Part shown: positions 226-64,000 of the stretch, one piece after another
Position numbering within the stretch: the first letter of the stretch is position 1
How the letters are laid out: each line of letters opens with the position of its first letter
Assembly: GCA_023078555.1 (NCBI GenBank)
Contig: CM041197.1
Location: 11,443,257 to 11,507,256 of the forward strand
Direction: 5' to 3'
Length of the DNA: 64,000 nt
From: Ulva prolifera
Taxonomy: Eukaryota; Chlorophyta; Ulvophyceae; Ulvales; Ulvaceae
Position numbers and translations under genes: made by a program
Notes under the pieces: generated by a model
What the model was told of the DNA's origin: nothing
Seen by the model: the letters and a program-made list of their open reading frames with translations, nothing else
The model's database searches: none

Positions 226-1929
226 GTCGCAGATGTGCTTGACGACCAAGGCGATCAGGGCTGGGTGGACGCCCTGGGGTGGCTGGTCGCCGACACGGAC
301 TGGAGCGACGCCTGTGCGGCAGAGCCCATGCACTGCGCCCTCCTCGCCCTCCCCCCGCACCCCCTCCACCGCGTCATGTCCGCCTGCCTCGGTGCACTTT
401 CTCTCACCTCCTTTCTCACAGCGGCCCCTGCTGACCTCCACGCTGCGGCCGTCTCCGCCGCCCTCAGAGATGGCGTCCTACACATTCCTGACTCTTATGC
501 CACAGCTATACTGCCGCAGCTCCAGTGGGCGTCGTTCCCAGCACCCGGCCTGCAGCGTGTCTGCCTCCACGGCAACAGTGCATCGATGTTCCCCGCATCC
601 TCTGGTGGCCTCTTGGCACGAGGCCTCGCCGCCCATCCCTCCCTCACCAGCATCGCGTATAGCGCCGCCATGCACGGCTCCGCGCTTACGCCGCGGTGGC
701 TGCACAGCTTCGCGGCGTGCCTCCGCCCCGGCGCGCTGCCGCACCTCGTGGACCTGGAACTCACCGTCGCCGCCCACCCCGGCGGCTGCGCTGCGCTCGC
801 CGCCTGCCTCCGCCTCCTGCCCACCCTGACCTCCCTCCGCGCAGTCTTCAAGATCTCTCGGCCGCAGAGCACAGCGGCGGTGCCTCTTTCAGCCTATGGC
901 CGCTTCGCAGGCGCTCCCGCGTCCCTCCCGCGCTTGCAGTCGCTCGCCGTCACCGAGGACAGCAAACCAGATGGTGTCAGTGATGCGGGGCAGCCACTCA
1001 CCTGCCTCCATTCCTTCCTCTCCCTCCTCAGCGCTCCAGAGCTGCAGAAGCTTCGCCTCGACTGGTGCCCTTGCGGTGCCTCGGCTTCTGCTGTGCTGAA
1101 GTTGATCACTCGTGCCCGGTTTCCGGGTTTGAGAGAGTTGCGCATTCTCACAGCTGTTGACGCGGAAGATGCTGCGAACATGATGCCTGGGGGTGACGGG
1201 GTCCTGACAGGGCTGCCGCCACTGACCGACCTCGACTTGGACGGCCCGTGCCCTGTGTCGGGGCTGGCCATTGCAACATCTGTCTGCAGCGCCGTCACCG
1301 CCTCGCTCACGTCCCTGACGGTGGGTGCGCGTTCGCACGACCACGACAAACACCCCGTGAAGTGTGACGCCATGGCCGTGCGGCACGCCTGGGAGCCGTT
1401 CTGGGCTCAAGTCGGGCGTTGCACTGAGCTCGAGCTCGCTGCTCTGGAGGTGCATGACCCCTTCTGGTGGACAGCAGCGCCCGGCGCACAAGCAAGCAAA
1501 GTTGTAGCAGCTGCACTGCGGCCGTTGTCGAAGCTGCGCAGCTTGAGCCTGCATGCTGCGAGTCCACCCAGCTGCCGGGCAGAGCAGTGTGTGATGCTAA
1601 GTGGCAGCATCCTCGGCAGCGCTCTCGCCACGCTCACACGCCTGAGGAGCTTGGCGATCTCACATCGAGGCTGCCGGATCGAGTTTGACTCGGTGCAGCC
1701 GCTGCTGGGCGCGTGCATGCACCTGCAGCACGTGTCGCAGCTTGGCCTGTGCTTTCCTGGGGTCACTGTGCCGCTGCTGGCCGCGCTTGTGTCCGAGCTG
1801 CCTGCCCTCGAGGGTGTAACCTTTGATAAGGAGGTCCTCGAGTCAGGTGGCCCAGGAGGTGGCCTGGGGGCGCTTCAGGCCAGGTTCCCGAGCGTTGTGT
1901 TCAAGCGGTGTGGTAGCAGCCAGTTGTAA
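226..1929 (+). CDS. Copy 1: BTB-LRR-like protein, exon 2 only (exon 1 lies left of the window)
   Basis: This is the second exon of a two-exon family member, 567 codons from GTC GCA GAT (VAD) at 226 to TAA at 1927-1929. The splice acceptor CAG is at 223-225. The ATG at 220 is chance: several paralogs have GTGCAG or TCCAG there, so translation does not start at it. The product has a helical linker (ALLALPPHPLHRVMSACL), then conserved blocks of the repeat region: LHSFAACLRPGALPHL, AHPGGCAALAACLRLLPTL, CLHSFLSLLSAPEL, RFPGLRELRI, LATLTRLRSLAIS and LGLCFPGVTVPLL. It belongs to subfamily A with copies 3, 4 and 6. No stop or frame break is visible. Bases 1-225 are the end of the intron and resemble the intron ends of the other A copies. 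Function is inferred from the BTB-like N-terminus of paralogs. Confidence 0.85.
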   Translation, partial: VADVLDDQGDQGWVDALGWLVADTDWSDACAAEPMHCALLALPPHPLHRVMSACLGALSLTSFLTAAPADLHAAAVSAALRDGVLHIPDSYATAILPQLQWASFPAPGLQRVCLHGNSASMFPASSGGLLARGLAAHPSLTSIAYSAAMHGSALTPRWLHSFAACLRPGALPHLVDLELTVAAHPGGCAALAACLRLLPTLTSLRAVFKISRPQSTAAVPLSAYGRFAGAPASLPRLQSLAVTEDSKPDGVSDAGQPLTCLHSFLSLLSAPELQKLRLDWCPCGASASAVLKLITRARFPGLRELRILTAVDAEDAANMMPGGDGVLTGLPPLTDLDLDGPCPVSGLAIATSVCSAVTASLTSLTVGARSHDHDKHPVKCDAMAVRHAWEPFWAQVGRCTELELAALEVHDPFWWTAAPGAQASKVVAAALRPLSKLRSLSLHAASPPSCRAEQCVMLSGSILGSALATLTRLRSLAISHRGCRIEFDSVQPLLGACMHLQHVSQLGLCFPGVTVPLLAALVSELPALEGVTFDKEVLESGGPGGGLGALQARFPSVVFKRCGSSQL

Positions 1930-2104
1930 CGATGAGACTCCGGGGCTGACACAGGGTCACCACAGTGCCTTTAGGTTTCTGTATGTGCCTTGATGTGTGC
2001 CCGTTCACATGCGTGTCCGCAGATGTACATTGGGCACTTGAAGACAGCAGACCCTTTGCACATTATGCGGGAATCGGCATCTGCATCCCAAGGGGCAGAC
2101 ACAC
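1930..2104. other. 3' flank of copy 1, interrupted by a transposon
   Basis: This short spacer after copy 1 holds a segment ending CATCTGCATCCCAAGGGG that is also found 3' of copy 3 (about 11408-11422), in degenerate form 3' of copy 6. The flank was therefore duplicated with the gene. It is split by the 1.42-kb inverted-repeat element that begins at 2105. The last 8 bases (2097-2104, AGACACAC) are the left target duplication. Confidence 0.6.
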
Positions 2105-3526
2105 AGGGGGTCAACCACTCCCGCTACATGGTGGGCCCACCTACGGCGCGCAAGATCGGCTGCGATTTTGGCCGCGTGGGGAAGACTTTGGCTAATGTCT
2201 ATGTTGAATGGGCATTCGTAGTGTGTCATCTCACTCGGGTGGGGAAAATGGCCATTGATCGTCCATATGGCTCGTCTGGTTGGGGGAAATCGGCCTTTCG
2301 CGACGCTGGCTCCCCAACAGGCGCAGACGCTCAGTCGCCTCCCCAAACCTCCCCAAACGTTCGCACGTGTCCCCAAACGCCTTTAAAATGAGCTCTCTGA
2401 AGCTCTTGTTGGTGATCGCAAGGCTGTATGTGCATGTTTTTCGTCGGTGAGGCTTTATGAAGCTGTATACGGCTGAGTTTCCTGGAGGCTGGCCACATAG
2501 TGACGCACGGTATGCAATTTGAGTCGTATTAATCCTTCTGATAATGCTGGATAGGTCCGAATCTCTGGATATCCGGACAGGGCGTCCTACCTGCGATCTG
2601 TGTGTAGCATGGGATAGTGGCTCGAACTGAATTATACACGAGATATCAAACCTTCACTGCCTGATCCTGATTGATCGTTACTCTCGTAGAACGTTTGATG
2701 TCGGCATGGGGCACATGAGTATCTTGATTCCTGTGACAGGCCTGACAGGCCCTTGTGATGGAGCATGATCCGGAGCTTTGCAGTCCACCTGCTACGTGTG
2801 TACTTCTGACGTCAGATGTCAGCGTAGGTATGCCTAGGTCATCTTTTGCGTAGTGTCACTGGAGACGTGTTGAGTTACTCTGGCCTGCTGTGATCATGCC
2901 TCACCATTGTACACTAATGAATCATTTCAATAGAGCTGTGGATGCTGGATACACGTTGGATACATCATTGATGTGCATTTGTGGTATCATTTGAGTCACA
3001 TGCTATGAAATAAGGTGTAGATGTGACGTTGCATTACAAAACATGGGCATTCACCGTTGCACATAAAATTGAGGCAGGGTCCTTCAACACGCAATATTCA
3101 ACACGCAATATTCAACACGCAATATGCTGCCAATCAATGCTGGCATGTCGCCTGACCAGTGCGTGAGCGCCCCGCCATGTCGGCCCGATCAGGTTGAATA
3201 TTACCTCACTTGCCGAATGCTACCCACAAATGTGACAGAAGCAATATGTCATAACCCGGTGAGTATTATAGCATATTTTGAGTGTGCTGTGTGTTCTCGA
3301 TGCAATGGCACACGTTTGGGCATGAACGACCCTCGTTTGGGGAAAAGCGCGGTAAATCGACAAAACCCGGGTTTGCGTTGGGGAGACTCCCCAACAGCGA
3401 GATAGCACACTACGAATGCCCATTCAACATAGACAATAGCCAAAGTCTTCCCCAAGCGGCCAAAATCGCAGCCGATCTTGCGCGCCGTAGGTGGGCCCAC
3501 CATGTAGCGGGAGTGGTTGACCCCCT
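2105..3526. mobile_element. Non-autonomous DNA transposon with 128-bp terminal inverted repeats and 8-bp target duplication
   Basis: The left end 2105-2232 and the right end 3399-3526 are inverted copies of each other over about 128 bp with only a few mismatches. Both begin AGGGGGTCAACCACTCCC when read inward. The element is flanked by a perfect direct repeat AGACACAC at 2097-2104 and 3527-3534. The interior is AT-richer than its surroundings and has no transposase-like reading frame, so it must have been moved in trans. It carries a 14-bp tandem repeat at 3083-3124. An 8-bp duplication is typical of hAT, P and Novosib groups. The terminal bases do not decide between them. The near-identity of the ends suggests a fairly recent insertion. 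Confidence 0.88.
3083..3124 (+). repeat. 14-bp tandem repeat, three units, inside the 1.42-kb element
   Basis: The unit TTCAACACGCAATA is repeated three times without change at 3083-3096, 3097-3110 and 3111-3124. Confidence 0.95.
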
Positions 3527-3534
3527 AGACACAC

Positions 3535-4398: not shown

Positions 4399-6797
4399 AT
4401 GACAGGTGAGCGAGGCACGCAAGGCTTCGGCTCCTGTCGGAAGAGAAGTCGCGTAGTCCTAGCGGCAGACGTCCACTCTCTGAAATCAGACCATCCTGCT
4501 GTTGTCGCTGGGAGCTGCATCCCGCATGAAGCCGTCAAACGATCGCGGCTTCTGTCCGGGCTTGGTGACACGGAAGGCCTCGCTAGCCGGAGCTCCGCTC
4601 CCAGGCGACCTATTACCTGAGGATATTCAACTGTGGGGAAGAGCTTGTTCCGTCAATACTGAACTCTCTCCAAGCGAACTGGTGACAGTGCTGAAGGTAC
4701 GAGGTTGTGTTGCTGATGTCCGTCTGCACACGCACGCGCTCAGAGCTCTGTCAGCAGATCGTACGTAGCTATGTCCCATGTGTCGCGCTACTGCTGGCGT
4801 ATGAGTCCGCTGCATGCCGGCGCAGCTATCTTCGCTGCGGCCATTTGTTCTGAACCAGCGGACTCGTGATCGTCATCGCGCGATATACGTCGAAGAAGCT
4901 AGAAAGTGATTCAGCTGTTCCCTGACTGGAGTTTCAGCGTGTCTGGCTGGCGTTCTGAGCTATGTGCCTCTCGATTGTGACGACCTGCTGTCGCTTCGTT
5001 GACCCAGTTCAAATGTCTGGCCCATACTGTCGCCTGTTCATGGTTTTCCCTCCCAGAATCCACTTCTCGCAAAAATTAGAGCTGTTGCATTGTGCAATTT
5101 CGTGCTGCACGGCCCTGCCAGAGATCGCCATGCTGACAGGCACATGTGCTGCTACACCCCTCCTCCACCGCGTCATGTCCGCCTGCCTGAAGCACACCGG
5201 CCTCGCCGCCCTTCTCAGCACCTTCCCGGATTCCTTCAACACCGCAGCCACATCTGCCGCCGTCACGGACGGCGGATACGAAATCTGGCTCAGCGATGCC
5301 GCCACCATCCTGCCGCACCTGCCGTCCGCCTCCATCCCGGCGCCCGGCCTAAATGTCATCTGCTTGATGTGTGATGAATACGACACCATGCCTGCGGCGG
5401 TGGGGGGGCTCCTCGCGCGCGCACTCGCCGCCCACCCGTCCGTGACCCGCTTCGCGTTTCTCAAAACTTCCGCCCTCTACAACACCGCCCTTGCGCCGCA
5501 GTGGCTGCACAGCTTCGCGGCGTGCCTCCGCCCCGGCGCGCTGCCGAACCTGCCCCGGCGCGCTGCCCCGGCGCGCTGCCCCGGCGCGCTGCCCCGGCGC
5601 GCTGCCGAACCTCGTGCAGATGGACCTCCGCGTCGCCGCCCACCCCGGCGGCTACGTAGCCCTCGCCGCCTGCCTCCGCCTCCTGCCCGCCCTGACCTCC
5701 CTCCACACAGTGTTCGAGCTCTCAAAGAAGCAGCGGTCAACAGCGGTGCCTCGTTCCTCCTACGCCACCCTCGCAGGCGCGCCAGCCGTCCTCCCCCACT
5801 TGAAGAAACTCCTCATAGAGGACGAATACAGCGATGAAGAAGGTGGTGATGAAGGCGTGGAACCGCCACCGACCTGCCTACACTCCTTCCTCTCCCTGCT
5901 CCGCGCTCTGGCCTTACACGAGTTGTCGATCACCTGGAACCCCTCTGACGTCCCCGCTGCCACCGTGCTGAGAGCGGTGACGCGCGCTCGATTCCCGGTG
6001 CTGCAAGAGCTTCGTATTGATACCGCTCTCGGCGCGACGGAGGCTACGTCGATGCTGCCAGGGGGACGCGGGTGCCCGGCGGAGCTGCCCCCCCTTGCAG
6101 ACCTGAGGATCGGCGGCCCTTGCTCAACGTCCATGTTGGCGATTGCTGCTGCTGTCTGCAGCACCGCCTCCGCCTCCCTCACTTCCATACAGCTGGAGCC
6201 CCCGCTGTATTGGCTGTACACTTACCCTGTGAGCTGCGGGGCGAGGGAGTTGCGGCAGGTGTGGGAGCCGTTCTGGCAACAGATCGGGCGTTGCACTCAC
6301 CTTGCGGCTCTGGACGTGCATGATCTGTTTGGCGTGGCCACGATGCCCCGGGAGCGTGTCAGCCGAGTCTTAGCAGCTGCTCTGCGGCCGCTGACGCAGC
6401 TGCGTAGCTTGTCCCTCTTTGCCGTGACTCCGCCAAAGGAACCCCGGGGGGTGGGTGTGGAGTTGAGTGGCAGCATCGTCGGCAGCGCTCTCGCCACACT
6501 CACCCGCTTGCGGAGCTTGGCGATTTCCGATTCGCACTGCCGGTCGGCTTTGACTCGGTGCAGCCGCTGCTAGAGGCGTGCACGCACCTGCAGCACGTGT
6601 CGCACCTTGCCCTGTTCTTTCCTGGGGTGACAGTGCCGCTGCTGGCTGCGGCTGTGTCCGGGATGCCCGCTCTCAAGAGCGTGAGCTTGACACAGGATCC
6701 CTCAGCTGCCGGTGCTGCGGGCAACGCGCTGGAAGTTCTGCGAGCACGGTTCCTGGGCATTCGGTTTGTGGGACATGTCCGCGGCGAGTCGTATTGA
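4399..6797 (+). pseudogene. Copy 2: broken BTB-LRR-like gene (exon 1 4399-4696; exon 2 remnant about 5157-6797)
   Basis: Exon 1 begins MTGERGTQGF, carries the conserved CRKRSRVVLA and VKRSRLLSGLGDTEGLA blocks, and ends ELVTVLK before GT at 4697. A 10-bp insertion (AGCCGGAGCT, about 4582-4591) shifts the frame, and the family sequence resumes one frame over (APLPGDLLPEDIQLW). Exon 2 lacks the usual VADAL start and first 35 or so codons. Homology starts near LLHRVMSACL (5157). A 61-bp expansion of a GC-rich 13-bp repeat (5544-5604) causes a second frameshift. A 1-bp deletion near 6552 (CCGGTCGGC for CCGGATCGAG) causes a third. The last part ends at TAA 6795-6797. Three independent disruptions and a missing exon start make it a clear pseudogene of subfamily A. 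Confidence 0.9.
5531..5604 (+). repeat. 13-bp minisatellite expansion in copy 2
   Basis: The unit CCCCGGCGCGCTG occurs once at 5531-5543, then after 9 bp (CCGAACCTG) four more times in a row at 5553-5565, 5566-5578, 5579-5591 and 5592-5604. Intact paralogs have a single unit here, encoding RPGALP. The extra 61 bp is not a multiple of three. It is explained by one 22-bp slippage followed by three 13-bp slippages. Confidence 0.92.
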
Positions 6798-7336
6798 CCC
6801 GGACCTAGACCTGTAGAGTGCTAACTGTAACAGCCTGATCGTGTTGATAATCCTGTGTCTACAATCACACGTATATTGCCCTGCATGCATTCAGACTCTT
6901 TTCCTGTGATGTACCAGTCATATCTGACTCCGTTATGTCTCAACCTTCCAGGAATCAATCCCTGCGGAACTGGTGACGGAGTGTCTGTACGTCAACAATG
7001 CACTACAACCTATTGTAGTGATCTAGATCTGATCTAGAACCGGCACACCGCTCCGGCCAGATCGAGCGGAGAGCAATCATCGGACGGGGCTGTGGTACCT
7101 GCCCTCCAACTTGGACTTGGCGTGCCCTCAGCGGAGCTGCAGAGCGCATGGCTGGGGGCCTCGGGCACATGGCGCATGGCTTTCCCGAGGAGCAGCCTTA
7201 ATTAAGCTTCTCGAGACGTCATGACAGGATTCTTCAGCCACGTTAGCAAGCCTGTTAAGACATGCATTTCAGGTCCAGGCCAGTTTTTCCCTGTCGATGT
7301 AGACCTGCGTCTACACCTCGTATGCATGTGCGGCAC
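6798..7336. other. Intergenic region between copies 2 and 3
   Basis: No gene seen. The 3' flank of copy 2 has TGTAA about 30 bp after the stop, which could be an algal-type polyadenylation signal but is not conserved in the other copies. The MITE at 7345 lies just to the right. Confidence 0.4.
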
Positions 7337-7344
7337 TTCTGCAG

Positions 7345-8040: not shown

Positions 8041-11000
8041 ATGGCGGATACTCACGGGAAGCCAGAATCCGGCGCTTGCCGAAAGAGAAGTCACGTCACT
8101 TTGGCGGAAGACTTTCAAGGCTTGCGTTCCGATGGAAGTGGTCATGCGGTTGTGGCCGGGAGCTGCATCTCGCGTGAAGGTGTCAAACGATCGCGGCTTC
8201 TCTCCGGGCTGGGGGACACCGAAGGCCTCGCTGCGCTCCCAGGCGAAATATTGCCTGAAGATATCAAATTGTGGGATATAGCCGTACAGTTTGACACTGA
8301 ACTGTGTCCTGAAGAGCTCGTGACAGTGCTGAAGGTACGGGGTCGTGTCGCTGCTGTCCTTCTAGATCTGCACATGCACAGGCCACGTGTCTGACATTAC
8401 TGTACTTTACATACCTGTTTTTTATGATTTGTCTGTGTGCCAACATACCTGTCTGCGCTGCCGGCGTGCGTCTTGCCGACATCTCCGCGTGCGCTGCTGC
8501 TGGGGTCTTCGTCGCAGCCCTGGGTCATATCTCGCAAAGTCCAAGCACACTTCAGCTCTGAGTCGTTGACATGGACTTTGTAGATACGGGTTTCTGAGGG
8601 CTGCGGCTTTTGCTCGTGACATGCCACGTAACGCGTAGCTGAGCAGTTCAAACGTCCGAGCGATGCAATCGTTGGCAGTGTAAGCTCTGCAGTCGACGAT
8701 CAGTTTTCGCCAACGCGACCGAATGAGCGCTATGCAACATAGCATTACATGGTCCTACCAGACATTCTTTCGCTCGCAAGTCAACGTGTCAATGCTCCAC
8801 AGTTCGCCATCTCGTAAAGCAATCTGGTGAGCAGCTCTGCTCGGGCTGTTGACGGTTCACTTGACCTTGCTGCAGAGTTTTGGTCTTCTCGAGTCATGAG
8901 CGGTCTCCGTGTTGTGCGGTGCTGTGTTGCCATGACACTGCCCTGTTGCTTCCACCCGACTGGCCACCTCTGCCCATGATCATGAGCACCAGCAGCATCA
9001 ATCCCAAAGTCACCACAGCTGCGAGGGCTGTGCACAGGTGTCTAAGGCCAATGCTGCTGCGGTGCACACAGCGATGCGGGGGGTGGGTGTGTGTGTGTGC
9101 CACTGGGGTGTGGTGGTTGCCAGTCTTGGGTCGCGGTGCAGCGTTTCCGGGGCTGCCACCGTGACCCAAATATTAGACCTGCATATCCGGAATTGTTCTA
9201 TGTGATCGGGCTTGATGACCCAACGCTGGTGGGTGCCACCACATGTGGGTCTGGCTGCGGCCTGGGCTGGTGCGCGCGTGAGCGGGTACATGAATGTGTT
9301 TATCTGTGTTGCGTGTTGTATGAGTGGGTGTGTGATTCCCCTGCCTCTGACCTGTGGTGCTACCGGCCTCGCTGGCTCTTTCCTTGTAACACAACGATGC
9401 AGAATGGCCACACGGGTGAGCGTGTTTTGCGGCCTTGCGCCACTGTTGCAACCAATTGGTGATGGCACTGTGTGCTGTGACTCGATTGTTGCTCTGCCAC
9501 ACACCGACCGGAGCCTTCGTCATTTGCTTACATTATCTTCAGCTGACCCTACAAAGTAGCGGTGCAGGTTGCAGACGCGCTGGGCGACCAGGGCGACGAG
9601 GCGTGGGTGGACAGCCTAGCAGCCGCAGCCACAGCAACAGATTGGAGTGATGCGGCCGCCACAGACGCCATGCTGTGCACGCTCCTCCGCCTGCCCGAGC
9701 ACCTCCTCCACCGCGTCATGTCCGCCTGCCTCGATCCTGACGATGAATTCAGTCTCCTCAACACCCTCCGCGCGTTCCCTGTGCCCCTCCACATTGCAGC
9801 CATCTCCGGCGCCCTCGCGGAGGGCGCTCTGCGCCTGTGCTACGATGCAGCCCACTCTGTCATGCCGCACCTGCAGTGGGCCACGTTCCCTGCACCCGGC
9901 CTGCAGGCTCTGCACGTATACAGCGGCGGCTTTGTCTCCGTGCCCGCGGCTGCCGGCGGCGTCCTTGCGCGAGCACTCGCCGCACACCCCTCCCTCACCC
10001 TGCTCGAGCTCAACACCAGTGATGCCGCACTCACGCCGCAGTGGCTGCACAGCTTCGCGGCGTGCCTCCGCCCCGGCGCCCTGCGCAATCTTGCGGACCT
10101 GGAAACCCGCGTCGACGCGCACCCTGGCGGCCATGTCGCGCTCGCCGCGTGCCTCCGCTCCCTGACAGCCCTGACGTCCCTGCAGACGACCTTTGATCAC
10201 TTTGAGCAGCGCGGTGCGGCGGGAGTGCCGGTCTCAGCGTATTCCCGCCTCGCAGGCGCCCCAGTATCCCTGCCCCACTTGCAGCATCTCAGGCTACTTG
10301 AGGATAGCACCGTGAATGAAGTTGCAATTGCGCAGCAGCCGCCCAACTGCCTTCACTCCTTCCTCTCCCTTCTCAGCGCTCCAGAACTGCAGACAGTGCA
10401 CCTCGAGTTCGGCCCGTCCAGGGCCTCTGCGGCTGCCGTGTTGAACGCAGTCACACAGTCTCGCTTTCCGGGCTTGAAGACGCTGCACATTGAAACAGCT
10501 GTCAATGTAGGGGAAGTCATGCGCATGGTGCCTGGCGGCTGCGCAGTCCAACCAGAGCTGCCCCCGCTATCCCGCCTCAGCCTAGCCGGCCCGTGCTGCG
10601 CGTCCATGCTGGCCGTCGCCGCGGCTGTCTGCAGCGCCACCGCCGCCTCGCTCACATCCCTGTACCTGGATGCCGCAGAGCCTGGCATTTGCAGCTTCTC
10701 TGCTAGATGCGGGGCGACAGAGGCGCGGCAGGTGTGGGAGGCTTTCTGGCAACAGGTCGGGCGTTGCTCTCAGCTTGCTGAGCTGATCGTGCACGGTCTG
10801 GTAGGGATAGGTCCAGCGCCCCGGGTCCGTGTCAGCCACGTCCTGGCAGCTGCGCTGCGGCAGCTGCCGCAGCTGCGCAGCTTGTTCCTGGGTGCGGTCC
10901 TTGCGCCAGATGAATACATCCCCGTTGGGCTGAGTGGCAGCGTCCTGGGTAGCGCCCTCGCCACACTCACCCGCCTGACGGCCTTGGCGATCGCCGAGCG

Positions 11001-17273: not shown

Positions 17274-17622
17274 AGAGGTGGAAGCATCGCCGGCAGCGCT
17301 GCCGGCTAGCGCTGCCGCCACGCTCACCCGCCGGAGGAGCTTTGCGGTCTGTTCGGGCCGCCTGATGCAGTGCAGCCGCTGCTGGATGCCCGCACGTACC
17401 TGCGGCATGTGTCGCATCTCGGGCTGTACAACGTTGACTCCGGGCGTGAAAGTCCTCGCTGCGGCTGTGCGCGGGATGCCTGCTCTCAGGAGCATGAGCT
17501 TGAGAGAGCACTCCTGAGTTGCGCGTTCTGGAGGGGGCCAACTGGAGGCATTGGCGGCTCGGTTCCCGGGTTTTCGTTTGGAGCAGTGTCTACCGGCGGC
17601 GTCACGGTAACGTGGTCCTAGA
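17274..17622 (+). pseudogene. Copy 5: 3' fragment of a subfamily A exon 2
   Basis: About 350 bp match the last 115 codons of exon 2: GSxxGSALATLTRLRSL, then VQPLLDACTYLRHVSHLGL, then AAVxGMPALRSMSL. A 13-bp insertion (GCCGGCTAGCGCT, about 17301-17313) and other indels disrupt the frame. It stands alone with no exon 1 nearby, about 0.9 kb after the intact copy 4. This suggests a remnant of a partly deleted tandem copy. Confidence 0.8.
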
Positions 17623-18800: not shown

Positions 18801-18812
18801 ACACTGTCAAAG

Positions 18813-51068: not shown

Positions 51069-54000
51069 TCATTCGCAGCAACAGCACTGGTCGACTGTGA
51101 CCCCTGGCCAACGAGGCTGAAGGTGTTGGGCATCAACGGCGCTGCCGCACAGACTCCCGCCCACGTGCAGCTTCTGTAGCGCTCGCAGCTTCGGGATGAG
51201 CTCAGGCAGCTGCACGTCCCGCCTGGAGTGGAAGCACAGGTCCAGCCACGACAGCTTGGCGAGGCCTGCGCAGGCCTCCAGCACATGCTGGTGCTCCTGG
51301 AGATGCAGCACCGCTCCCGCTGGGGTTCCGCTGCAGATGCGGAGGGCCTGCAGGGCGGTGAGCGCCGTCAGCGCGTCGGCCAGGACGCTGCCGCGCAGAC
51401 TGCAGCGCAGAGAGGAGCCGGGGAGCCCCGGCCGAGCGACTAGGTGGAGGTAGGTCAGATCTGTCAGTGGCTTGAGGGCCGCCGCCAGCTCTGCGGTGTG
51501 GTTCAGCACATCCTCGCCTGTGTGCAGGTCGCTGCACAGCGTGTACATCTTCAGGTGCCGGAGATGGGTGCATTGCCGCAGGGCCGACAGCATGGATGCA
51601 CGCGCATCCTTGACATCCTCCAGGGACGCCCGCTTCGCAAACGCTGTGCTGATTTTGATTGAAAGAGCCAGCTTCGTCATGTTGGGCGCCAGCTGTGCTG
51701 AAAGAGTCACCAGCTGTGGGAGCGACACCGGGCACATGCTATGCAGATTGACGCTGGTCAGGACCGGCAGCACAGCGCTGTGCACTGGCAGCGGCAGGCA
51801 GGAACTGCGATTTAGCATCTCGGCGTTCATGCTCAGCTCGCGGAGGGAGGGGAAGCGGGCCAGAGCTGCCCTGAAATGGCTGAACGAGATGTTGCGTGAA
51901 TACGTTCCGAATTCGAGCAATGTCAGCGAGGGGGCACAGATGAAAGGGAGCAGCGAGAGAATGAAGATGCTCCGGACGGACGGAGCGACCTCACTGCCCT
52001 CCCCGTCCGCCTCCTTTTCTTCTGCTTCAACTTCAGCATCTATGACGAGCGCTCTGAGGCTGGGAAGGTGCACAGGCATCACTGCAGATCGCAGAGACGC
52101 AGCCTGCACCGCCGTGTCCGCGGCCGCCTCTGCCTGTGGCAGCTGATTATTATCAGTGTTGACCTCTAACCGTGTCAACTTGCAGAGGCGCTTCAAGCAG
52201 TCAACAACAGGTGCGCTGCTGCTGGGGTGGTCCGCCACGATGATGAACAGCTGCGCCAGCCGCGGCGTGGCGCCGCGAGGCAGGCACGCTGCAAACGTCT
52301 GCAGTGCGGGCGGGTCAAACACGAGGTCTGAAAGCAGGACTTTCGTGAGTGATGTGTGCAACGCGACGGTCCGTGCGAGGAGGGCTCCTTGACCCGGAGT
52401 GCACCGGTGATTGCATGCGGCCTCGAGGTTGCAAACGTCCTTGTTGCCACCCAGCTTCAGCTCCAGAAGGCCCGGCAGCGGCACGGCCGTGGCTGAGAGC
52501 AACTCCAGAAACGCGCCGTCTGTCGTGATGGGGACCTCCAGCGTGCCCTCAGCAGCAAAGGAGGCAACAAGAGCGTGGTGGAGGGGCAGGGGAAGCAGCT
52601 GCAGGGCTTCAGGCAGGCTGTCCCAGAGCGGCGCACAGGCGACGAGGCAGCGGTGCAGGAGGTGGGGCGGGAGCATGAACAGGTTGGCCAACATCGCGTC
52701 AGCACGCTTCTCAGCCTTCCAGTCCGCCTCTACGATGCGCTGCGCCAGGATGCCCTCCCAGGCCGCCTGGTCGTCCCCGCCCAGCGCATCCGCCACCTGC
52801 ACGCCCAGGCCATGAAGAATGGAGCATAAAGAATCATGCGAGCACAATGCAGAGCGCCGATGGCGGTCTGCTGCATGCATGCATGTGGCCAGGGGCAGCC
52901 GGACCACCACAGCAGCCCGCGAGACATCGTGGGATTGATTGCAACTACAGTCCTCCGCCGAGATTGCTCCGAGATCGTCCAGAGGCAAGACCTCGTGAAG
53001 CTCTTCGCTGTGAGCGCATGCCTGAGTCAGTGTAGATGCGTCTGTGTGTGGCGCGCTGATTTGCGCTGTGCCGGCGGTGGCTGCAGGAAGGTGGTGCCCA
53101 GCTTGGCACCAGGACAGCGTCATATGATCTGTGCAGACTGTGTGGCTCCGTACGAGTCATTTGCAAGTGGTCTCCGTGGCAGAGAGACGGGGTGTCAATC
53201 ATTATTGGGTCGCTTTGCAGCATTTCCAGGACTGACAGCCTCAAATTAGATCTGAATATTCGGAACTGTTCTATGTGATCGGGCCCGATGACCCAACACT
53301 GGTGTCAATGAGAGCGGAGTGATGGTGGAGATGCGTGCACCCCGCTCATGAATGCTTCTGAGATTGACTGTGTACATGTTCTGGAGCATTCTCGAGAGCA
53401 CAGCATGCTGCTGTTGCCGTTCTCACACACAACACGTTACAGCAGCACCTTCCTTTGAAACATGCCAAAGCTGACATCATGCACTCCATGAGGGTGGTTG
53501 ATGACAGCAGAGGTAGAGTGTCCAGGCTTCGACGTTCTGACAAGATGCGGACGCTTGAACGCAGAATGCTGTTAAGGCTTGGTGCTGTACACTTTTTGAG
53601 CCTGTGCCCACTCACGATGAAACCAGACCCGACCAGGGCGGAAAACAAGTATCCCTAGAACTTTGCGTGCATCCAAAATGACCTCCGTGTAAAAGTGATG
53701 TATATACAGATTTGAGAGAGTAACGGTGGCAAGAACGCTTGGCAACAACGGTGCTGGCTGTGTCGTTCGAACACCCCGATCCAAACTCTGTGTTGGGCAG
53801 CGGATCCATCTGCTTAGCAGCTATGAAGCAGGGAGCTTCAACGAACATGCTGCATATGCGTGTGAACACGCGGCGATCATGTATGCAGACTGAGACCGAC
53901 GGTACGTGCAGCGCTAGCGCGATACCTTCACAACCGTCACCAGCTCGGATATCGACGGAATAGTATCTCGTAGGCTACACAACTGCCACAGCTGTACATC

Positions 54001-54210
54001 TTCGGGCGAGATGTCGTCGGGGAGGGACGCCAGGCCGTCGACTTGCGCCAGTCCCGACAGCAGGCCAGACTTCTCTGCGATGTCCTCGCGCACTCGATAG
54101 CCCACTACAATCGATCTGCTTGAGTCCTTGGCAATGTCTGAGCTTTGTGTGAGCGTCACGTGCGCCAGCCGTGGCACCTTGGCCGGCGGGATGTTCTCGG
54201 ATTCTGACAT
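51069..54210 (-). CDS. Copy 13: BTB/POZ-like and leucine-rich repeat-like protein, subfamily C, complement(join(51069-52796, 53926-54210))
   Basis: Exon 1 (95 codons) starts MSESENIPPAKVPRLAHVTL at 54210, has SIVVGYRVREDIAEKSGLLSGL and LPDDISPEDVQLWQ, and ends ELVTVVK before GTATCG. Exon 2 (575 residues) starts GTGGCGGAT after GGCGTGCAG at 52796 and ends at TGA 51071-51069, giving 670 aa. The open frame runs on upstream into the intron to 53123, but that part has no family similarity. The 1129-nt intron holds MITE copy C. The linker is LFMLPPHLLHRCLVACA. Blocks include FAACLPRGATPRL, LLPFICAPSLTLLEF, DLHTGEDVLNHTAELAAALKPL and LQEHQHVLEAC. The end is DQCCCCE. Confidence 0.88.
53200..53301. 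mobile_element. hAT-like MITE, copy C (102 bp), in the intron of copy 13
   Basis: Ends CATTATTGGGTC (53200-53211) and GACCCAACACTG (53290-53301) are inverted with two mismatches. A perfect 8-bp target duplication GTGTCAAT lies at 53192-53199 and 53302-53309. The interior matches copy B in the same sense and the reverse complement of copy A (GATCGGGCCCGATGACCCAA). Confidence 0.92.
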
Positions 54211-54857
54211 GCTGTCTACGACTACCTCAGATCTAGAATACGTGCAGGCAAATGAAGCGGGCTTGAACAAGGTGAGACAAAGTCATCTGCAGGTGCCGCC
54301 AATGGCCGAAACAACATGCACATGGACGTCATCCAGATCTCTGTCGTCCTACGTTTCGGAGCAGCGGACGAAAGCATTTTCAGCGGAAAGCTCTTCGCCA
54401 CTCGACATAGCGAGGGTGTCAATCGCACGCCTGTCGACAGTGCTGCAAAGGTCACGATCGGTATGCACCTGGTGCTCGGTTCAGGGCTAAGCATAGCTGG
54501 TGTTGGCTGGGCACCTCCTAATGTGGTCATTGGGTTTACGTACGTCAACTGGGCGATGGAGCCAGCAAAGATCGCGACGTACATCAGCGCCATGACGCCG
54601 TTACATGCTCGCAAAAACGGCTGCAACATCAAGTAGGCCGCTGTCAAACTCTTGCCATTGGTGCTGTCTGCGGCTTGCCTCACGGCCTGACATTCGCTGT
54701 GCGTTTGTGCCTGGACCATGTCCAAGCGCCGAAGTAACAGTGCTCGAAAGCCGTAACAGGGCAACGGGTAGCTCGCACCATTGGTGCATTTCGCTGAAAA
54801 TTCTACCAAGCTTACCAAAGCCGTACAGCCGAGGTGTGAGGTTGAGCCAGGCGCGCT
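54211..54857. other. Divergent spacer between copy 13 (-) and relic copy 14 (+)
   Basis: This 647-bp stretch is the only plausible promoter region of copy 13. A 106-codon frame at 54316-54636 (+) and a longer one on the minus strand have no recognisable similarity and overlap each other, so I do not call them. Confidence 0.4.
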
Positions 54858-55870
54858 AGACTTTCGGTCCGGCATCGGCTCTGCTGCGGTGTTGGCCTCT
54901 CTCGACGGCGGTGTATCGCTGGAAGATCTATAAATCTTGCAAAATGCCTGCATTTGGAAGTGTGACCCAGGTACCGACGAGCTGATCACAGTCTTGAAGG
55001 TGCGAGTTGAAGGCTCTGCCGGTCCGAATTGCTCAATCTGTTTCCGAACTCTCCGCTTGCAAGACAAGTGGCTGTATCGGACGAATGAGTATTGTTCCAC
55101 GAGTGGGTAGGGGCGTGAGCGCCCTCGCTGCTACAGATAAGCGGGCTCTTGCCTGAATAACGTCGTCAGCTGCTCCCGGGTGTGCACTGTCCTAGATCTC
55201 AGCCAGTCCTGCGTAGCGGCGAAAGAAGGCTCAAATTAGAGCTGCAGCGGTCAATGTAGATTAAGAAGCGAGATTTTGTTGCGCTACAGCAAGCATTGTT
55301 TTCGCTAAGTAGGAATTGTGTACGATGTCACAGCTCCACCTCACTGTCAGTGTTGTCTATGCATTATTCGCTGTGTCTTTGCGACGTTGGCAACCATCAT
55401 ATGATTACCACACGCTCAGAAGTGCTAATCTAGCACAACAATGTCAGATCTGTGGCACTGGCCATCTCCATCGTGTCGGCTCATTGTGCCATGCGGTCCC
55501 ATGAGCTGGCCATGGCCACCTCTGGTCAGCTTTGTGCGCATGCCTTCCCTCATGATCTGCTGCAGTCACTCTATCCTAGCACAGCAGCGCTTCTTGTTCC
55601 TATCTTGCCTGATCACAGGATTGAGCGATGCATGCAGGTTGCAGACGCGCTGAATGCAATCAACTCATATGTCAAAGCTGAAACATGGGTCCGCACACTC
55701 GCACAGCGCACTGTAGCCACCGAATGGCAGCACACTCGCCGTGCCGAAATCGTGGTCGGCACGCTCCTCCTCCTGCTCGCACACCTGCTCCACCGTGGCC
55801 TCTCGGCCAGGCCGCCCAATGTCGGGCTCTCCGAACTCATACATCCCGCCTTCACAGTGCGCCAGCACAG
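54858..55870 (+). pseudogene. Copy 14: relic with the end of exon 1 (about 54858-54999) and the start of exon 2 (55638 to about 55860)
   Basis: Read in the frame ending AAG at 54999, the exon 1 relic gives RSGIGSAAVLASL, then GGVSLEDL, a stop, ILQNACIWKCDPG and TDELITVLK before GTGCGA. The first half of exon 1 is missing. After a 638-nt intron-like gap, exon 2 starts GTTGCAGAC at 55638 behind GCATGCAG. It keeps the linker only (VADALNAIN, then LLLLLAHLLHRGLSA) and loses similarity after about 75 codons. Splice sites are preserved although the gene is gone. Exon 1 resembles subfamily B. Confidence 0.75.
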
Positions 55871-57329
55871 TCATGGCCGCACATGATACGGGATGCTCCA
55901 TGTGGAGTTGAACTGTGTCATTGATGATAGGCACCGCTGACCCAACACGCCAACAGAGGCTGTGCCAGGATTCAGGAACAGCTCGTGGCACGCACATACG
56001 CTGACCTGCCTCAGAGCCACATTGGACACCAGTGGACACATGGGCTTCTCCGCCACATTTGGGTATTGGACGCCCGTTCATGCAATGTCAGGCGATATGA
56101 AATTGCCACCGGAGTGGCTCGACACGACGCCTCACAGGATGCAAGCCTGTTGCCTACAGCCAGAAAGTGCGTCTTCCTTTTTGCCTAGAGGACTTCAGCG
56201 AGCATTGCATGCCTCTGCTGAGATGCAGGTGGTCGAGCGATGTCTGACTTGGAAATGTGCACGTGTTACATGTGCTTCTGTTGCACTGACATACATGCGC
56301 ATACAGTGCCATAGTTTCCGGCACGGCAACTTCATACAGTGCCATAGTGTCCGGCACGGCGTTCCTATCACCATAGCAGGTGGTGGCTGTGCAAGCGTGT
56401 GCGTGTACGCCTGCGCGCTTGCTCCCTGGAGGCCGCCCACACACCACCACGATCGAAGTGATGCATTCGCACACAGCCAAAGCCACGGCCATCTAGGTAT
56501 CCACGTGTACAGCAGGACCTGCTCCTACAGCAATGCCACATGTACAGCCGCGATGCAGAAACAGCTCGAGGCGGTAGCACGCAGATGCTGCTGAGGTAGT
56601 GATCCCGGCAGTCCGGCTGGGCTGCGATCGCACGAGGTGGCAAAGCACCGCTGCATGCATGTGTTGACTACGCGGCGGGGCTGTACATCTTGCCGCGGCG
56701 ATGCCCCGGTGGCGGGCATGAGCCTGTCGACTTGCCTAAGGGCGCTCCGCCGACCACGTGTGCCTTTTGACAAGCGAGAGGGCTACAACCGAAGCTCTGC
56801 CAGATGTCAGCAGCAGTCCCAAAGCTGGCTTTGGAGGCGTGTCCGCAGGCTGGCAGGTGTCTTCGGCGGGCGCTGAGCCACCAGGCTTGGCGACCAAAGA
56901 CACAGCGGGTAAGGGAGGAGCGTCACGTTGGCGCCTGCCAACCATGGTTTACAGCTGGGTGACGGGGGAGTGCACGCACGTGCGCGCGGCTTGCACCGCA
57001 TGCAACCTCTCCACTGAGGCAGCGCCATCAACTGGGCATGCAGCCCTGGGCAGCTGGAACACAGAGGCTGCATGCCTGGCCATTGCATGCATGGGCCAAG
57101 GTCACACAGGGTGCCCTGACTCCGGCAGCAGGAACCAATACTGACTAATCTAGGGAATACACGCACACGTGCCCAAGCATGCACACCCACATTGACAATG
57201 TCAGTTTGCATTGAATGCAGATTACAAGAGAGTCGCTGTACGGCGCTACGGCATGCGTGCAGCTTCAGCACAGCATCACAGCTGGGAGCGTGGCCAGCAT
57301 AGAGTACCACCTTAAACGCACGATACACC
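55871..57329. other. Spacer between copies 14 and 15
   Basis: No gene seen. The middle (56230-56900) is the counterpart of 49900-50600. It has a 33-bp tandem duplication at 56300-56332 and 56333-56365 (ATACAGTGCCATAGT, then TCCGGCACGGC). A 210-codon frame (55962-56594) runs over this duplication and is not kept in the counterpart. Confidence 0.5.
56300..56365 (+). repeat. 33-bp tandem duplication
   Basis: Two adjacent 33-bp units starting CATACAGTGCCATAGT differ at only a few bases. Confidence 0.9.
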
Positions 57330-58085
57330 TCAACAGCTGCAGTCGCACACGCAAAACTTGACCCCTGGGAAGCGGTCCCGTAAGAGCCAGCCGTGGACGA
57401 ACATGCTTTCTCCTATGTGCAGCTGCTGCAGAGGCCGCAGCCTAGGCAGGAACTCAGGCAGCTGCGTGGCCCCCTCCGAGTTGATGCACAGGCCGAGGCA
57501 CGACAGCTTGGGAAGACCTGTGCAGGCCTCCAGCACATGCTGGTGCTCCTGGACCTCAAGCACCCCTCCATTGGTGCGTCCGCTACACATGCGGAGGGTC
57601 TGCAGAGCGGTGAGCGCCGTCAGCGCGTCGCCCAGGGGCCGGCCGTGCAGCAGGCAGTGGGAGCTCCGGCTCGAGTCGGAAAGGGATAGCACTGTCCGGG
57701 CGATCAGATGAAGGTGGGTTAGAGCCGTCAGCGGCTTGATCGCTGCCGCCAGGTCTGTGCTGTGGCGCAGCACAGCCTCACCGGTGTGCACGCAACACGG
57801 CGTGGCCAGCGTGAGATGCTGGAGATGCGTGCACTGCCCTAGTGCCGGCAGCATTGATGCCCACGCATCCTTGGTATCCCCTAGGGAAGGAATCCCCGCA
57901 AACTCTTGGCTGACATCGCACATGCCATATAGCTTCGTCATGTTGGGCGCGAGTTGAGCAGCGAAGGCCACGAGATGGGGGAGCGACACGGGGCACATAC
58001 CCTCCAGGCGAACGCTGGACAGCACCGGCAGCACAGCGTCTGCCTTGCTGTGCAGGGGCAGGCGGGTCGTGCGGTTCTTCATCTC
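57330..58085 (-). pseudogene. Copy 15: 5'-truncated subfamily C exon 2
   Basis: An open frame of 250 codons matches the last 45 percent of copy 12, starting at its EMRNCTSLLPLHS (here EMKNRTTRLPLHS, about 58085). It continues through LPALGQCTHLQHLTL, HTGEAVLRHSTDLAAAIKPL and VQEHQHVLEAC to TGA 57332-57330 with end VCDCSC. To the right of 58085 similarity stops abruptly. No exon 1 or first half of exon 2 is present. Because the frame is intact, the truncation is probably recent. Whether a shortened product is made cannot be told. Confidence 0.82.
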
Positions 58086-58840
58086 GATCTGACTGTGTGT
58101 CGGCCACTGTCCGGCGGCCAGCCAGGCCTATCAACGGGCCGTGCCGAGCGATCAGTGTCGACATGTGTTTCACGCGTACAAATGTGCCTTGAAAGACACA
58201 GTCGGACAGGCAGGTAGCAATGCTGGCATCGAACAGTAATTTTGGGCAACATCTGAAGTTGTTGATGCGTAGGTATGTAGGAAAGCGGTGTAGGTTCCAG
58301 CAATGCTACATGCAGTCTTTCCGCATGCAGACGAGCCATACAAGTGAGATTAGAGAGCGCGCCTGACACGCATTGCGCAGGTGACAGCAGCATGTACAGG
58401 CACATCCAAATTAGTCTGATGCGTCGGAGACTTATCGCTTTTGGAAGGCAGTGAATTTGTCCTGCGCGCAGTAGCTCCTCTAGGTTTAAATCGACAGGCG
58501 TGTGTTCGATCGCAGACGCCCGAAGCTTCAGTCATCGAATATTGCAGATTCATTTTACAGGTGTGGGAACGAGACTATCATCTGGGGAAACATGCCGACG
58601 TGACGTTTGTGTTAGGTCCATTGCGACGCCCGCCGGGGTTGCCGCGCATCAATGCTCTCTGCTACACGGGCATCACAACTGTACGATGACTGCTTGAAGA
58701 TCGTTCTGCAAGGCTGCCTGACGTCGTTGGTCTCGGCAGCCCGTTCGGGACAACAAAGGTCGGACCTGCAGCTGCAGGCTACGCACTCCAGCGCTGAGCA
58801 AGGCTCAGTGAACGACATCTAAAGGCTGATGTGAAATCAG
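58086..58840. other. Divergent spacer between copies 15 (-) and 16 (+)
   Basis: No gene seen. A copy of the dispersed ~38-bp repeat lies at 58187-58222. It is the second orientation switch of the array, and the breakpoint at 58085 truncates copy 15. Confidence 0.5.
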
Positions 58841-61107
58841 ATGACTGCGAGCTTGAGGCAAGGTGCGCAGAGCTTGGTGACGCTGACCGAGGAGACGCCC
58901 GAGCACGCAGACGGTGACACGCCTGTAGTGTTTGGAAATCACGTCCGCCAGGAAGCGGCGCGCCGATCTGGTGTACTATCAGGCGTTGGAAACACTCATG
59001 GGCTAGCAGAGCTGCCTGGGCAGCTGAGCCCCGACGACATCCGCCTGTGGGAAGCTGCGTGCCTCGTTGATCGTGAGCCATCGACCAGCGAACTCGTGAC
59101 CATCCTCAAGGTATTCATCATCGTCTCTGATCAAGCTTACAATACATCAGTGCCTTTATGCATGTCAGCGCTGCTGCGTTCAGTGACGTAACCGGAACAG
59201 TGTCTCCCGATACCAGGTGTGAGCGCGCGTACAGTACATTCGGCAGCCCAGCTTTACCATAGTGCTAAGTTCAATGCCGCGAGTGCCATCTATCTTACGG
59301 CCTGTCGACACGAGCTGGTTGAGAAGACTGCTGGCCTCCCACAGCTGGATGCTGCTGTGCCGACTGACGTGCACCATGGCCAATTGTGCAGGTGGCAGAT
59401 CTGCTAGGAGACGGCCACATTGCCGCATGGGTAGACATGTTCTCAAACCGGATCATACCATCCAAGTGGGCAGACCCCAAAGCAGCGGAAGCATTGCAGT
59501 GTAGCCTGCTGCAGCTCCCCAGCCACCTCCTCAGGCGTGTGCTCATTGACCGCCTCGCCTCAGATGGTCTCGATGCCTTGCTGTCAACCTTTCCGGGCAC
59601 TCTTCACCCATCAATCGTCGCTAGCTGCGCTTCCACCGGCGCCATTACCCTTCCGAGCAAGCTCACGCACCTCGACACGGTGCTCTCTTGCCTTGCCATC
59701 ACCTCGTGTTCGCCTCCTGGGCTCCTGTCTTTGAAGTATCCGAGCACGTTCTCCAGCGGCATCGCCTCTGACACGGCCGCTGCCTTGTTGGCGCTCGCCG
59801 TCTCCGCTCACCCCTCGCTCACCTCCCTCAATCTCCAAACGATAATCCTCCGAGTCTCATTTTTCCGTCAGCTGGGCCTGGGCCTGGCGCACAACGCCCT
59901 GCCCAACCTCATCTCCTTACGCTTGTGCACAAACGTCCATCCAGATGGCTGCGCAGAACTGGCCCGCTGTCTGAAGTACCTTTCGGCGCTTACCTTCCTG
60001 CAGGCAGGGCTGTATTTCAATGATTGCGCCTCAGCCACAAGCAGTCTCGGGGCGTATGTGAGAATTGCAGCATCTCCAGCACGACTCTTGAATCTGAAGC
60101 AGCTTGTTGTGCACGAGCTGCACCACGTCAACCAGAGGAAGCTGCACCCTTGCAGTAGCAGCGTAAGCCACCGATTGTTTCCCCTCCTAGCCACTCCCAA
60201 CGTCACCTCTATCAGCTTCTTCTCAGACGTCGTCCGCGGGGCGATGCCAGCCCTCCTCCAGTCTCTCCGCCACATGCAGTCCCTTCAGGAGCTCAACATC
60301 GATGCCGACATGAAGAGTGACAACGCCCCACTCATAGCCCCCGTGTATGCCGGTGACAGCAGCGGTGAAGACATGCTGCCCGATCTCCACACCCTCACCA
60401 TCACCAGCGCGGACATCGTGTCCCCCATCGCCATCGCTGCTGCCGTCACCGCTGCAGGCGCCCTCACCCGCCTCTCCATGCACCATGTGCACATCACTGA
60501 GCGGAAGTTCATCGGCAAGGCAAGCAGTCCCCCCGATCAGCAGCGCACCCTGCCGACACCGACAAGCCAAGACATCAAGACGGCGTGGGGCGACCTCATG
60601 CCGGGCCTCGGCAGGTGCAACAGCCTCCGCGAGCTGTCGCTGAGTTGCCTGTGCAGCTCGCATGGAGGCGCCAACGACGCAAGCTTCAGCGATCGCCTGT
60701 CCGCCGCGCTCCAGCAGCTGCCGCTGCTAACCAAGCTGCGGCTGGAGGCGGTGTGCCGGCAGTGCGCCCCAGGCGCACTCTGCCAGCTGCAGGGCGGGGC
60801 GCTCGGCCAGCCACTGCGGGCGCTGACGGGGCTGCAGGCGCTGGCCGTGTGCGGGGCGGCAGAAGCGCTCGAGGTGAGCGCCCCGGAGCGCGTGCTGGCA
60901 GCGCTGCCGCAGTTGCAGCAGCTGACGTCGCTGGGCCTATGCTTTGCCGGCCTGCAGCAGGCCCAGGTTGCGGAATTGATTTCACAGCTTGGTGCTCTGA
61001 AAGAATGTGAGTTGTTGACCCCTGTCCTTGGTGAGACGGAGGAACAGGCTGTGGCATTCAAGGCCAAGTTTCCGAAGGTTGCATTCCAAGTGTGTGGCTC
61101 CACTTGA
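58841..61107 (+). CDS. Copy 16: BTB/POZ-like and leucine-rich repeat-like protein, subfamily B, join(58841-59110, 59392-61107)
   Basis: Exon 1 (90 codons) starts MTASLRQGAQSLVTLTEETP, has PVVFGNHVRQEAARRSGVLSG and LPGQLSPDDIRLWEAAC, and ends ELVTILK before GTATTC. Exon 2 (571 residues) starts GTGGCAGAT after TTGTGCAG and ends at TGA 61105-61107 (661 aa). The intron is the shortest complete one, 281 nt. The linker is LLQLPSHLLRRVLIDRL. Repeat blocks include LLALAVSAHPSLTSL, HPDGCAELARCLKYLSAL, LGRCNSLRELSLSCL and LGLCFAGLQQAQVAELI. The variable loop is His/Ser-rich instead of acidic. The end VAFQVCGST keeps one Cys. It is closest to copy 17 and then to copy 7. Confidence 0.88.
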
Positions 61108-62811: not shown

Positions 62812-64000
62812 ATGGCTGGCGTCAAGCGGAAGTTGTGCATGGTAGCACTCACCGAAGAGAAGCCTGAAGAGGATTGTCGCCAGATGTCGGTCGTGTTCGG
62901 GGATCACGTTCGACCAGCCGCAGCTCGTCGGTCTGAGATACTCACACATCACGAAAGCACTGACAGAATTTCAGAGCTTCCGGGTCGTCTCAGTCCGGAC
63001 GAGATTCGGCTCTGGCAGGCTGCGTGCCTGCTTGAATGTGAGCCATCCACCAGCGAGCTCGTGACAATCCTGAAGGTAGCTCCCAACGTCTCTGGCGCAA
63101 CTGTGATCATGTCAGTGCCGGAAACACGTCGGCAAGCCACTGATGCGATTGTATCTTCCGCCACACCGTTAGTCTTCAGAGGCGCAGGCCTTGTGAACTG
63201 GTTGCCACGCACTCCGCAGCCAAGAGATACCAGATTATCGCATGCATCACTGCGTTCGCCAGTGATTTCACAGACAGCTGACCAGTGAGTTTGCGTCGAA
63301 GACAAGTGACCGCATGCAGCTGGGTGCTGCCGTGCTACACTGACGGTGACCATTGGTGCAGGTGGCCGACGTGTTGGGAGATAGCCACATCGCCGCCTGG
63401 GTAGACATGTTCTCAAAGAGGGTCATGCCATCCAGATGGGCAGACGGAGATGCAGCTAAAGCGCTGCAGTGCAGCCTGCTGCAGCTCCCCAGCCACCTCC
63501 TCAGCCGCGTGCTGGCTGCCTGCCTGGCCATGCACAGACTCGATGCCTTGCTGTCAGCCTTCCCAGCCACTCTCCACCCATCCCTCGTCTCCGTCTGCGC
63601 GTCTGCAGGCGCCATCACCCTCCCACACACACTCCCGCACCTGGACACGGTGCTCTCTTGCCTCGCCATCACCTCGTGCCCGCCGCCCGGGCTGCTGTCC
63701 GTGGACCTACCAAGCACGTACTGCGAAGGCATGGAGTCTGACACGCATGCTGCCCTGCTGGCACGCGCCCTCTCCGCTCACCCGTCCCTCACCTCCCTCG
63801 GCCTCCACCAGTTCGTCCTCCCGGTCTCCTACTTCCGCCAGCTCGGCCTCGGCCTCGCGCACACCGCCCTGCCGAACCTTGTCTCGCTGCACTTGTGCAC
63901 CGAAGTCTTCCCAGACGGCTGCGCGGAGCTTGCGCGCTGCCTGAGGCACCTCTCGGCGCTTATCTTCCTGCACGCGGAGCTATACTTCGAGGACCGCCTC
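62812..64000 (+). CDS. Copy 17: BTB/POZ-like and leucine-rich repeat-like protein, subfamily B, join(62812-63075, 63362->64000)
   Basis: Exon 1 (88 codons) starts MAGVKRKLCMVALTEEKPEE, has SVVFGDHVRPAAARRSEIL and LPGRLSPDEIRLWQAAC, and ends ELVTILK before GTAGCT. The acceptor is GGTGCAG and exon 2 starts GTGGCCGAC at 63362. It stays open for 213 codons to the window edge, so the 3' part is missing. The intron is 286 nt, nearly the same as in copy 16. Visible parts are VADVLGDSHIAAWVDMFSKR, LLQLPSHLLSRVLAACL, LLARALSAHPSLTSL and FPDGCAELARCLRHLSAL. In exon 1, LTHHESTDRISELPG replaces the usual LSGxGDTxGLAxLPG, a local change in the BTB-like core. Confidence 0.87.

Follow-up and report, generated by a model that had tools for sequence, protein, structure and literature searches.

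A tandem array of two-exon leucine-rich-repeat genes, possibly encoding recognition adaptors, in the green alga Ulva prolifera

RESULTS

Seventeen Copies of One Gene Family in a 64-kb Window

We analyzed a stretch of 64,000 nucleotides from the green alga Ulva prolifera (assembly GCA_023078555.1, contig CM041197.1, here C2, positions 11443257-11507256; hereafter the window), C2 being one of 44 contigs of an 88.9-Mb genome. The window carries an array of one gene family, whose complete members consist of a short exon 1, an intron and a long exon 2 with leucine-rich repeats (LRRs). With the exon-2 frames as tblastn queries we counted 17 copies, 11 open and 6 broken. Tblastn together with a profile search of the six-frame translations gave, besides the broken copies, 12 exon-2 bodies (E ≤ 5.2e-76), of which one runs past the right window edge. 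Profiles of exon 1 and exon 2 confirmed 16 of the 17 copies, so that 16 are firm and one is faint. A sequence-only reading of the same DNA, made by a model from the letters and their open reading frames, had given the same total and the same division into intact and broken copies. It had also assigned nearly the whole 64 kb to the family, which was too strong: across the 16 firm copies, recognized exons occupy 27,084 of the 64,000 bases, or 37,592 when introns are included.

Copy 1 is present in the window as an open exon 2 on the plus strand (226-1929); its exon 1 is located just outside, upstream of position 1 (C2:11442377-11442634). Exon 1 and exon 2 are found on the plus strand in copy 3 (8041-8334 and 9568-11262), copy 4 (13581-13874 and 14665-16362), copy 7 (22699-22965 and 24326-26056), copy 8 (27660-27959 and 28524-30236), copy 9 (33043-33327 and 34605-36350), copy 10 (38418-38711 and 39386-41116), copy 16 (58841-59110 and 59392-61107), and copy 17 (62812-63075 and 63362-64000), whose exon 2 is cut by the window edge and has 565 open codons in the genome (L028). 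Copies 12 (exon 1 48469-48753, exon 2 45883-47586) and 13 (exon 1 53926-54210, exon 2 51069-52796) form a minus-strand segment (45883-54210) amid plus-strand copies.

Five of the broken copies are on the plus strand. Copy 2 (4438-6798) has exon 1 in two frames (4438-4696) and exon 2 in several (5100-6798); of copy 11 (42495-43431) only the latter half of exon 2 is left, spread over more than one frame; and copy 14 (54757-56210) consists of an exon-1 remnant with stops (54757-54999) and the start of exon 2 (55623-56210). Copy 6 has an open exon 2 (20089-21777) and was counted as broken because its exon 1 (19044-19307) contains an in-frame TAA at 19230. The fifth is the faint copy 5 (16956-17589), a frame-broken remnant of an exon-2 end. 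On the minus strand, copy 15 (57336-58097) retains only the exon-2 end. Exon 1 is thus open at 10 places within the window, interrupted by the single TAA at one, and broken at two.

Copy 5 had no profile match at a domain E cut-off of 0.05 and none in two genome searches; in tblastn several copies align with it collinearly over the exon-2 end in two frames, the best single piece scoring 37.7 bits and two pieces of copy 4 together reaching E 9.8e-7. An antisense tblastn match within copy 4, given by one query only and taken to be spurious, has about the same score (35.8 bits). As a control, 20 third-order Markov versions of the window were searched with the two profiles and yielded two matches in all at E ≤ 0.01; the profile matches relied on here have E ≤ 6e-9, except for the exon-1 remnant at 54940-54999 (E 0.0035).

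No other gene was recognized in the window: in a Pfam search of 10 of the larger intergenic frames, none matched at E ≤ 0.01, and no tRNAs were found. Between copies 1 and 2 lies an element (2105-3526) with 131-nt terminal inverted repeats that are 96% complementary and 1160 nt apart. Its inverted-repeat arm was found at at least 40 genome places at 97-100% identity (40 scored of 127 candidates), and the element is a recently spread inverted-repeat transposon. As for the genome at large, light-harvesting chlorophyll-binding genes were matched at 38 places, and one such gene matches 644 PDB sequences, of which the 60 listed are LHCI/LHCII or chlorophyll a-b binding proteins, in keeping with a green alga.

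Gene Model

In a complete copy, exon 1 encodes 88-100 amino acids (aa) and exon 2 562-581 aa, and the two are separated by a phase-0 GT-AG intron. Exon 1 ends at the common motif LVT[IV][LV]K or a near variant, followed by the donor, and exon 2 opens with VADxL directly after the acceptor. We examined splice sites in 31 exon 1-exon 2 pairings, selected because both exons had a profile match no more than 2.5 kb apart; they came from the C2 cluster described below and from members scattered over C1, C4, C9, and the rest of C2. Several of the pairings are from window copies, and some involve copies that are broken or partial. Within this selection the donors were GT in 29 cases and GC in two, the acceptor was AG in 30 of 31, and introns of 100-1360 nt joined the exons between codons. 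Introns of four sister pairs were 53-69% identical over aligned columns. Judged from the sequence, exon 1 is probably spliced to exon 2, and each gene of this nuclear family would encode a predicted product of ∼650-680 aa.

Predicted Leucine-Rich-Repeat Solenoid of Exon 2

Exon 2 of copy 4 was used for structure prediction and was modeled as an LRR solenoid with a helical N-terminal cap (predicted local distance difference test score, pLDDT, 79; predicted template modeling score, pTM, 0.81). The cap spans residues 9-80 of the model; after the N-terminal module there are 14 LxxLxLxx registers, whose strands are predicted to alternate with helices in one curved solenoid. The top Foldseek match of the model was COI1, and the solenoid resembles the LRRs of COI1/TIR1/FBXL proteins and others. 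Ribonuclease-inhibitor-like LRRs (RNI superfamily) likewise have LxxLxLxx strand-helix repeats in one curved solenoid, whereas the family differs from them in its irregular repeat lengths and its own N-terminal module. The best match to a Pfam LRR model was LRR_14 (E 5.3e-5, 22.6 bits against a cut-off of 40), found in one of 11 exon-2 proteins. By its predicted fold the family belongs to the LRR superfamily; it was filed there without a curated match because the repeat pattern and the solenoid define that superfamily, while the Pfam LRR models describe particular subfamilies.

Cluster Extent and Local Duplication

A single exon-2 query matched 66 places in the genome at E ≤ 0.001, fragments counted. 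From chosen loci we obtained at least 29 full-length stop-free exon-2 frames, at least 24 of which lie on C2 between 11.26 and 11.53 Mb (∼270 kb). No frame of the chosen set fell between 11.31 and 11.43 Mb on C2, and outlying members occur elsewhere in the genome. One locus (L024) was excluded from the tree, the rates and the map test, although its exon 2 is open for 555 codons. Pairwise identity among the 24 C2 exon-2 proteins was 25-70% (median 32%). For 22 of the 24, the closest relative lay no more than two map places away, whereas 2000 shuffles gave 3.9 on average and 13 at most. That closest relatives are map neighbors suggests local duplication, and the broken copies suggest local death.

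Some members stand apart from this pattern. The sister of minus-strand copy 12 in the tree is on another contig (C1:591556, support 96/89), and a copy has therefore moved between contigs. Five loci, L042-L046 (C8:1718602, C1:7954838, C2:399645, C8:2471303, and C1:4078384), are 97-99% identical over the ∼2.5 kb fetched, and each carries the exon-1 end, an intron-like stretch and ∼44 codons from the exon-2 start of the window family; three older relatives are 85-93% identical over ∼490 bases. A mobile element seems to have picked up a fragment of a family gene and dispersed it. Three very divergent single members, L037 (C4), L038 (C9), and L039 (C9), share the exon-2 start, and in the first two exon 1 was matched as well, at intron lengths of 169 and 100 nt, respectively. 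These may be older family lineages; because their branches are long, where they belong in the tree is uncertain. In viral contigs, none of the 18 pattern matches encoded a relative.

The N-Terminal Module Compared with BTB and F-Box Domains

Exon 1 and the helical first ∼80 residues of exon 2 together make up an N-terminal module of ∼170 aa, for which no Pfam family scored above its cut-off. The sequence-only reading had called this part BTB-like. On that proposal, a BTB domain split by the intron and followed by LRRs would make the products BTB-type cullin-3 adaptors. By eye, exon 1 and the exon-2 start do show the order of BTB elements, and the best alignment of the family profile with a BTB profile by hhalign has the register expected of a BTB, over 55 columns; this weak alignment is presumably what had been seen before. 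Its score, however, was 13.0, whereas eight of eight left-out BTBs were recovered at 51-103 and SKP1, a relative of the BTB fold, scored 23.6. About 8% of 400 column shuffles reached 13.0, and the reversed family profile scored 12.1. An hhalign comparison of the family with SKP1 did not support a BTB either. Pfam detected BTB in none of 20 joined N-terminal domains, none of five joined window N-termini (the two sets overlap) and neither of two sequences composed on the family pattern, and no BTB chains were listed in PDB searches with the family profile and one composed sequence. The BTB model PF00651 matched four places in the genome, none in the family, in a search that reads exon by exon and would be weak on a split domain. 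The predicted fold of exon 1 alone (pLDDT 43.6) was too low in confidence to inform on a BTB either way.

There is precedent for the architecture. According to PMC4209131, the PEX1 BTB-LRR proteins of Protochlamydia have a BTB in all but three of 73 members and are in part predicted or tested to be secreted; the BTB-LRR and F-box-LRR proteins of Parachlamydiaceae, which together with plant F-box genes (PMC3030570) are the nearest parallels in the literature consulted, are described there as large families with tandem arrays and birth-and-death evolution. PEX1 resembles the window family in its short N-terminal module with C-terminal LRRs, large family size, tandem arrays, pseudogenes, and birth-and-death; it differs in being bacterial and in having a BTB, which was not detected in the window family. 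With the profile and control scores set against the element order and this precedent, we consider a split BTB unlikely.

Before the LRRs the family consensus has LPPHLLHRVL, a stretch resembling helix 1 of the F-box. The F-box-like_2 model matched below its cut-off in two of 11 exon-2 proteins and in two of 20 joined N-terminal domains, and the hhalign score of the stretch exceeded that of 100 of 100 shuffles, over 14 columns only. PF12937 had 23 genome places at E ≤ 0.1, none in the family.

The earlier reading was accordingly sound in part. Its two-exon model with a phase-0 intron is supported at the sequence level by the splice sites and reading frame of the 31 pairings, its LRR-like solenoid is borne out by the repeat pattern and the predicted structure, and its view that copies arise and die in place agrees with the map order relative to similarity and with the broken copies. 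The array and the counts stood as well; the BTB, for which it had proposed the profile check, was not supported, there being no Pfam or PDB match and a profile-profile score within shuffle noise.

Selection on the Two Exons and on the Concave Face

The ratio of nonsynonymous to synonymous substitution rates (dN/dS) was 0.34-0.57 for exon 2 at dS of 0.40-0.69 (13 within-clade pairs), and 0.14-0.42, pooled 0.28, for exon 1 (four pairs). Both exons are under purifying selection. For comparing rates within the solenoid, strand registers were fixed from the predicted structure. Over all within-clade pairs, the exposed positions 3, 5, 7, and 8 had a dN/dS of 0.71 against 0.26 for buried positions, and 0.4% of 5000 random sets reached 0.71. 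When only eight independent pairs were kept, two of them from the largest clade and one from each other clade, dN/dS was 0.22 at the buried positions (1, 4, and 6), 0.45 for the whole gene, and a near-neutral 1.03 (bootstrap 0.47-2.46) at position 5, the central concave position; over all within-clade, non-independent pairs position 5 gave 1.31. When 14 non-anchor solenoid positions were drawn at random, replacements per site were as high as at position 5 in 0.2% of draws. The rate pattern at position 5 is as expected for a binding face and falls short of proof of adaptive change.

Some of these figures would also suit a drifting family, in which local duplication and weak constraint let the concave face vary without any special role. 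The average dN/dS of exon 2 is fairly high, six of the 17 window copies are broken, the interval at position 5 includes neutrality, and copy-number change among plant F-box genes has been read as drift (PMC3030570). On the other hand, 29 full-length exon-2 frames among those taken are free of stops, exon 1 is held to its pooled ratio of 0.28, and the fast change is concentrated at one structural register. We regard drift as improbable.

NB-ARC Genes in the Same Genome

A Pfam search of 11 exon-2 proteins and five joined N-termini of the window family found no NB-ARC, TIR, or kinase domain; one nSTAND match was at chance level (E 0.2; 11 bits, where the cut-off is 27). The genome has 33 NB-ARC matches, most of them clustered, at C4:7.317-7.529 Mb, C6:2.309-2.605 Mb, C1:4.68-4.88 Mb, and C8:5.23-5.28 Mb. 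In the single stretch that was read (L068), the NB-ARC is followed by LRRs like those of plant nucleotide-binding LRR (NLR) proteins. For Ulva mutabilis, PMC8891106 reports one nucleotide-binding-site LRR (NBS-LRR) candidate and cites others in two further green algae.

DISCUSSION

The leading account, which we tentatively favor, is that the genes encode LRR recognition adaptors, perhaps serving a ubiquitin ligase, in which the docking module stays constant while the target face varies, and that the family evolves by birth and death. Direct support comes from the array, the gene model as read from the DNA, the predicted solenoid, the purifying selection acting on exon 1 and exon 2, the fast central concave position, and the clustered relatives. 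For the rest, we infer that the genes are expressed and that the products bind targets: all copies would use the conserved N-terminal module to dock on a shared partner, for which a cullin-RING ubiquitin ligase, contacted by way of an F-box-like or some other adaptor fold, is the most plausible candidate; targets would be bound on the concave side of the solenoid, and it is there that the copies would diverge; and new copies would arise through local duplication and die in place. The ubiquitin-ligase role is preferred because COI1, the top fold match with a known role, and the weak motif before the LRRs both point to F-box-LRR proteins, and "ubiquitin-ligase adaptor or recognition" is our best functional guess. 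Like the FBXL and TIR1-COI1 proteins, which are substrate receptors of SKP1-cullin-F-box (SCF) ligases, the window family has a solenoid with a helical region directly before it, and LPxxLLxxVL stands at the place of F-box helix 1. Unlike them, it has no F-box model at cut-off, shows the first helix only and carries an extra exon-1 domain of ∼90 aa.

Several observations weigh against this interpretation. No Pfam LRR family, F-box, or BTB model reaches its cut-off in the family. The F-box-like motif spans one helix, and the rest of an F-box was not seen. LRRs of very different function match the exon-2 model equally well, and the VIA-align alignment to FBXL2 leaves out the helical cap, as it begins at model residue 82. 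As to the rates, position 5 was chosen after all registers had been viewed and its test reuses part of the same data; with the gene-wide dS its ratio is 0.84 (0.53-1.25). Positions 3 and 7 have dN/dS of 0.39 and 0.57, and positions 3, 5, and 7 pooled give 0.62. Given the interval at position 5 and this pooled value, relaxed constraint is possible and positive selection is therefore not demonstrated.

The main rival holds that the products are intracellular recognition proteins, for defense or symbiont sensing, which signal through the N-terminal module without a ubiquitin ligase. A conserved N-terminus, a fast concave center and a birth-and-death array would be expected here too, and the genome does contain the clustered NB-ARC matches, one stretch of which reads as NB-ARC plus LRR; family members at C4:7553383-7562602 lie ∼24-33 kb past the last NB-ARC match of the C4 cluster. 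This proximity is a single case, however, no NB-ARC match falls on the main C2 cluster, and NB-ARC, TIR, and kinase domains did not appear in the proteins searched. We rate this account as doubtful, and as less likely than the adaptor interpretation. The comparison with plant-type NLRs is similarly divided: both are clustered LRR genes, in one case near each other on C4, and the window family lacks the NB-ARC. LRR receptor kinases and receptor-like proteins were also compared, and Pfam found no kinase in the exon-2 proteins of the family.

We recognized no published description of this family in the literature on algal BTB/LRR or tandem LRR families, among the matches listed. It is conceivable, if rather uncertain, that the family represents a lineage-specific chlorophyte class of recognition LRRs with its own N-terminal module, no NB-ARC and a diversifying target face, possibly acting via protein degradation, which would form a second expanded repertoire beside the clustered NLR-type genes. 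If confirmed in other algae, the ∼170-aa N-terminal module would represent a new family of domains. The parts of the protein that change slowly and those that change quickly sit in different exons, which makes each of them testable. Clustered NB-ARC genes in a green-algal genome bear on the origin of plant NLRs. Recognition of microbes or of self is poorly known in green algae, and expanded, fast-changing LRR families such as this one are candidates for it.

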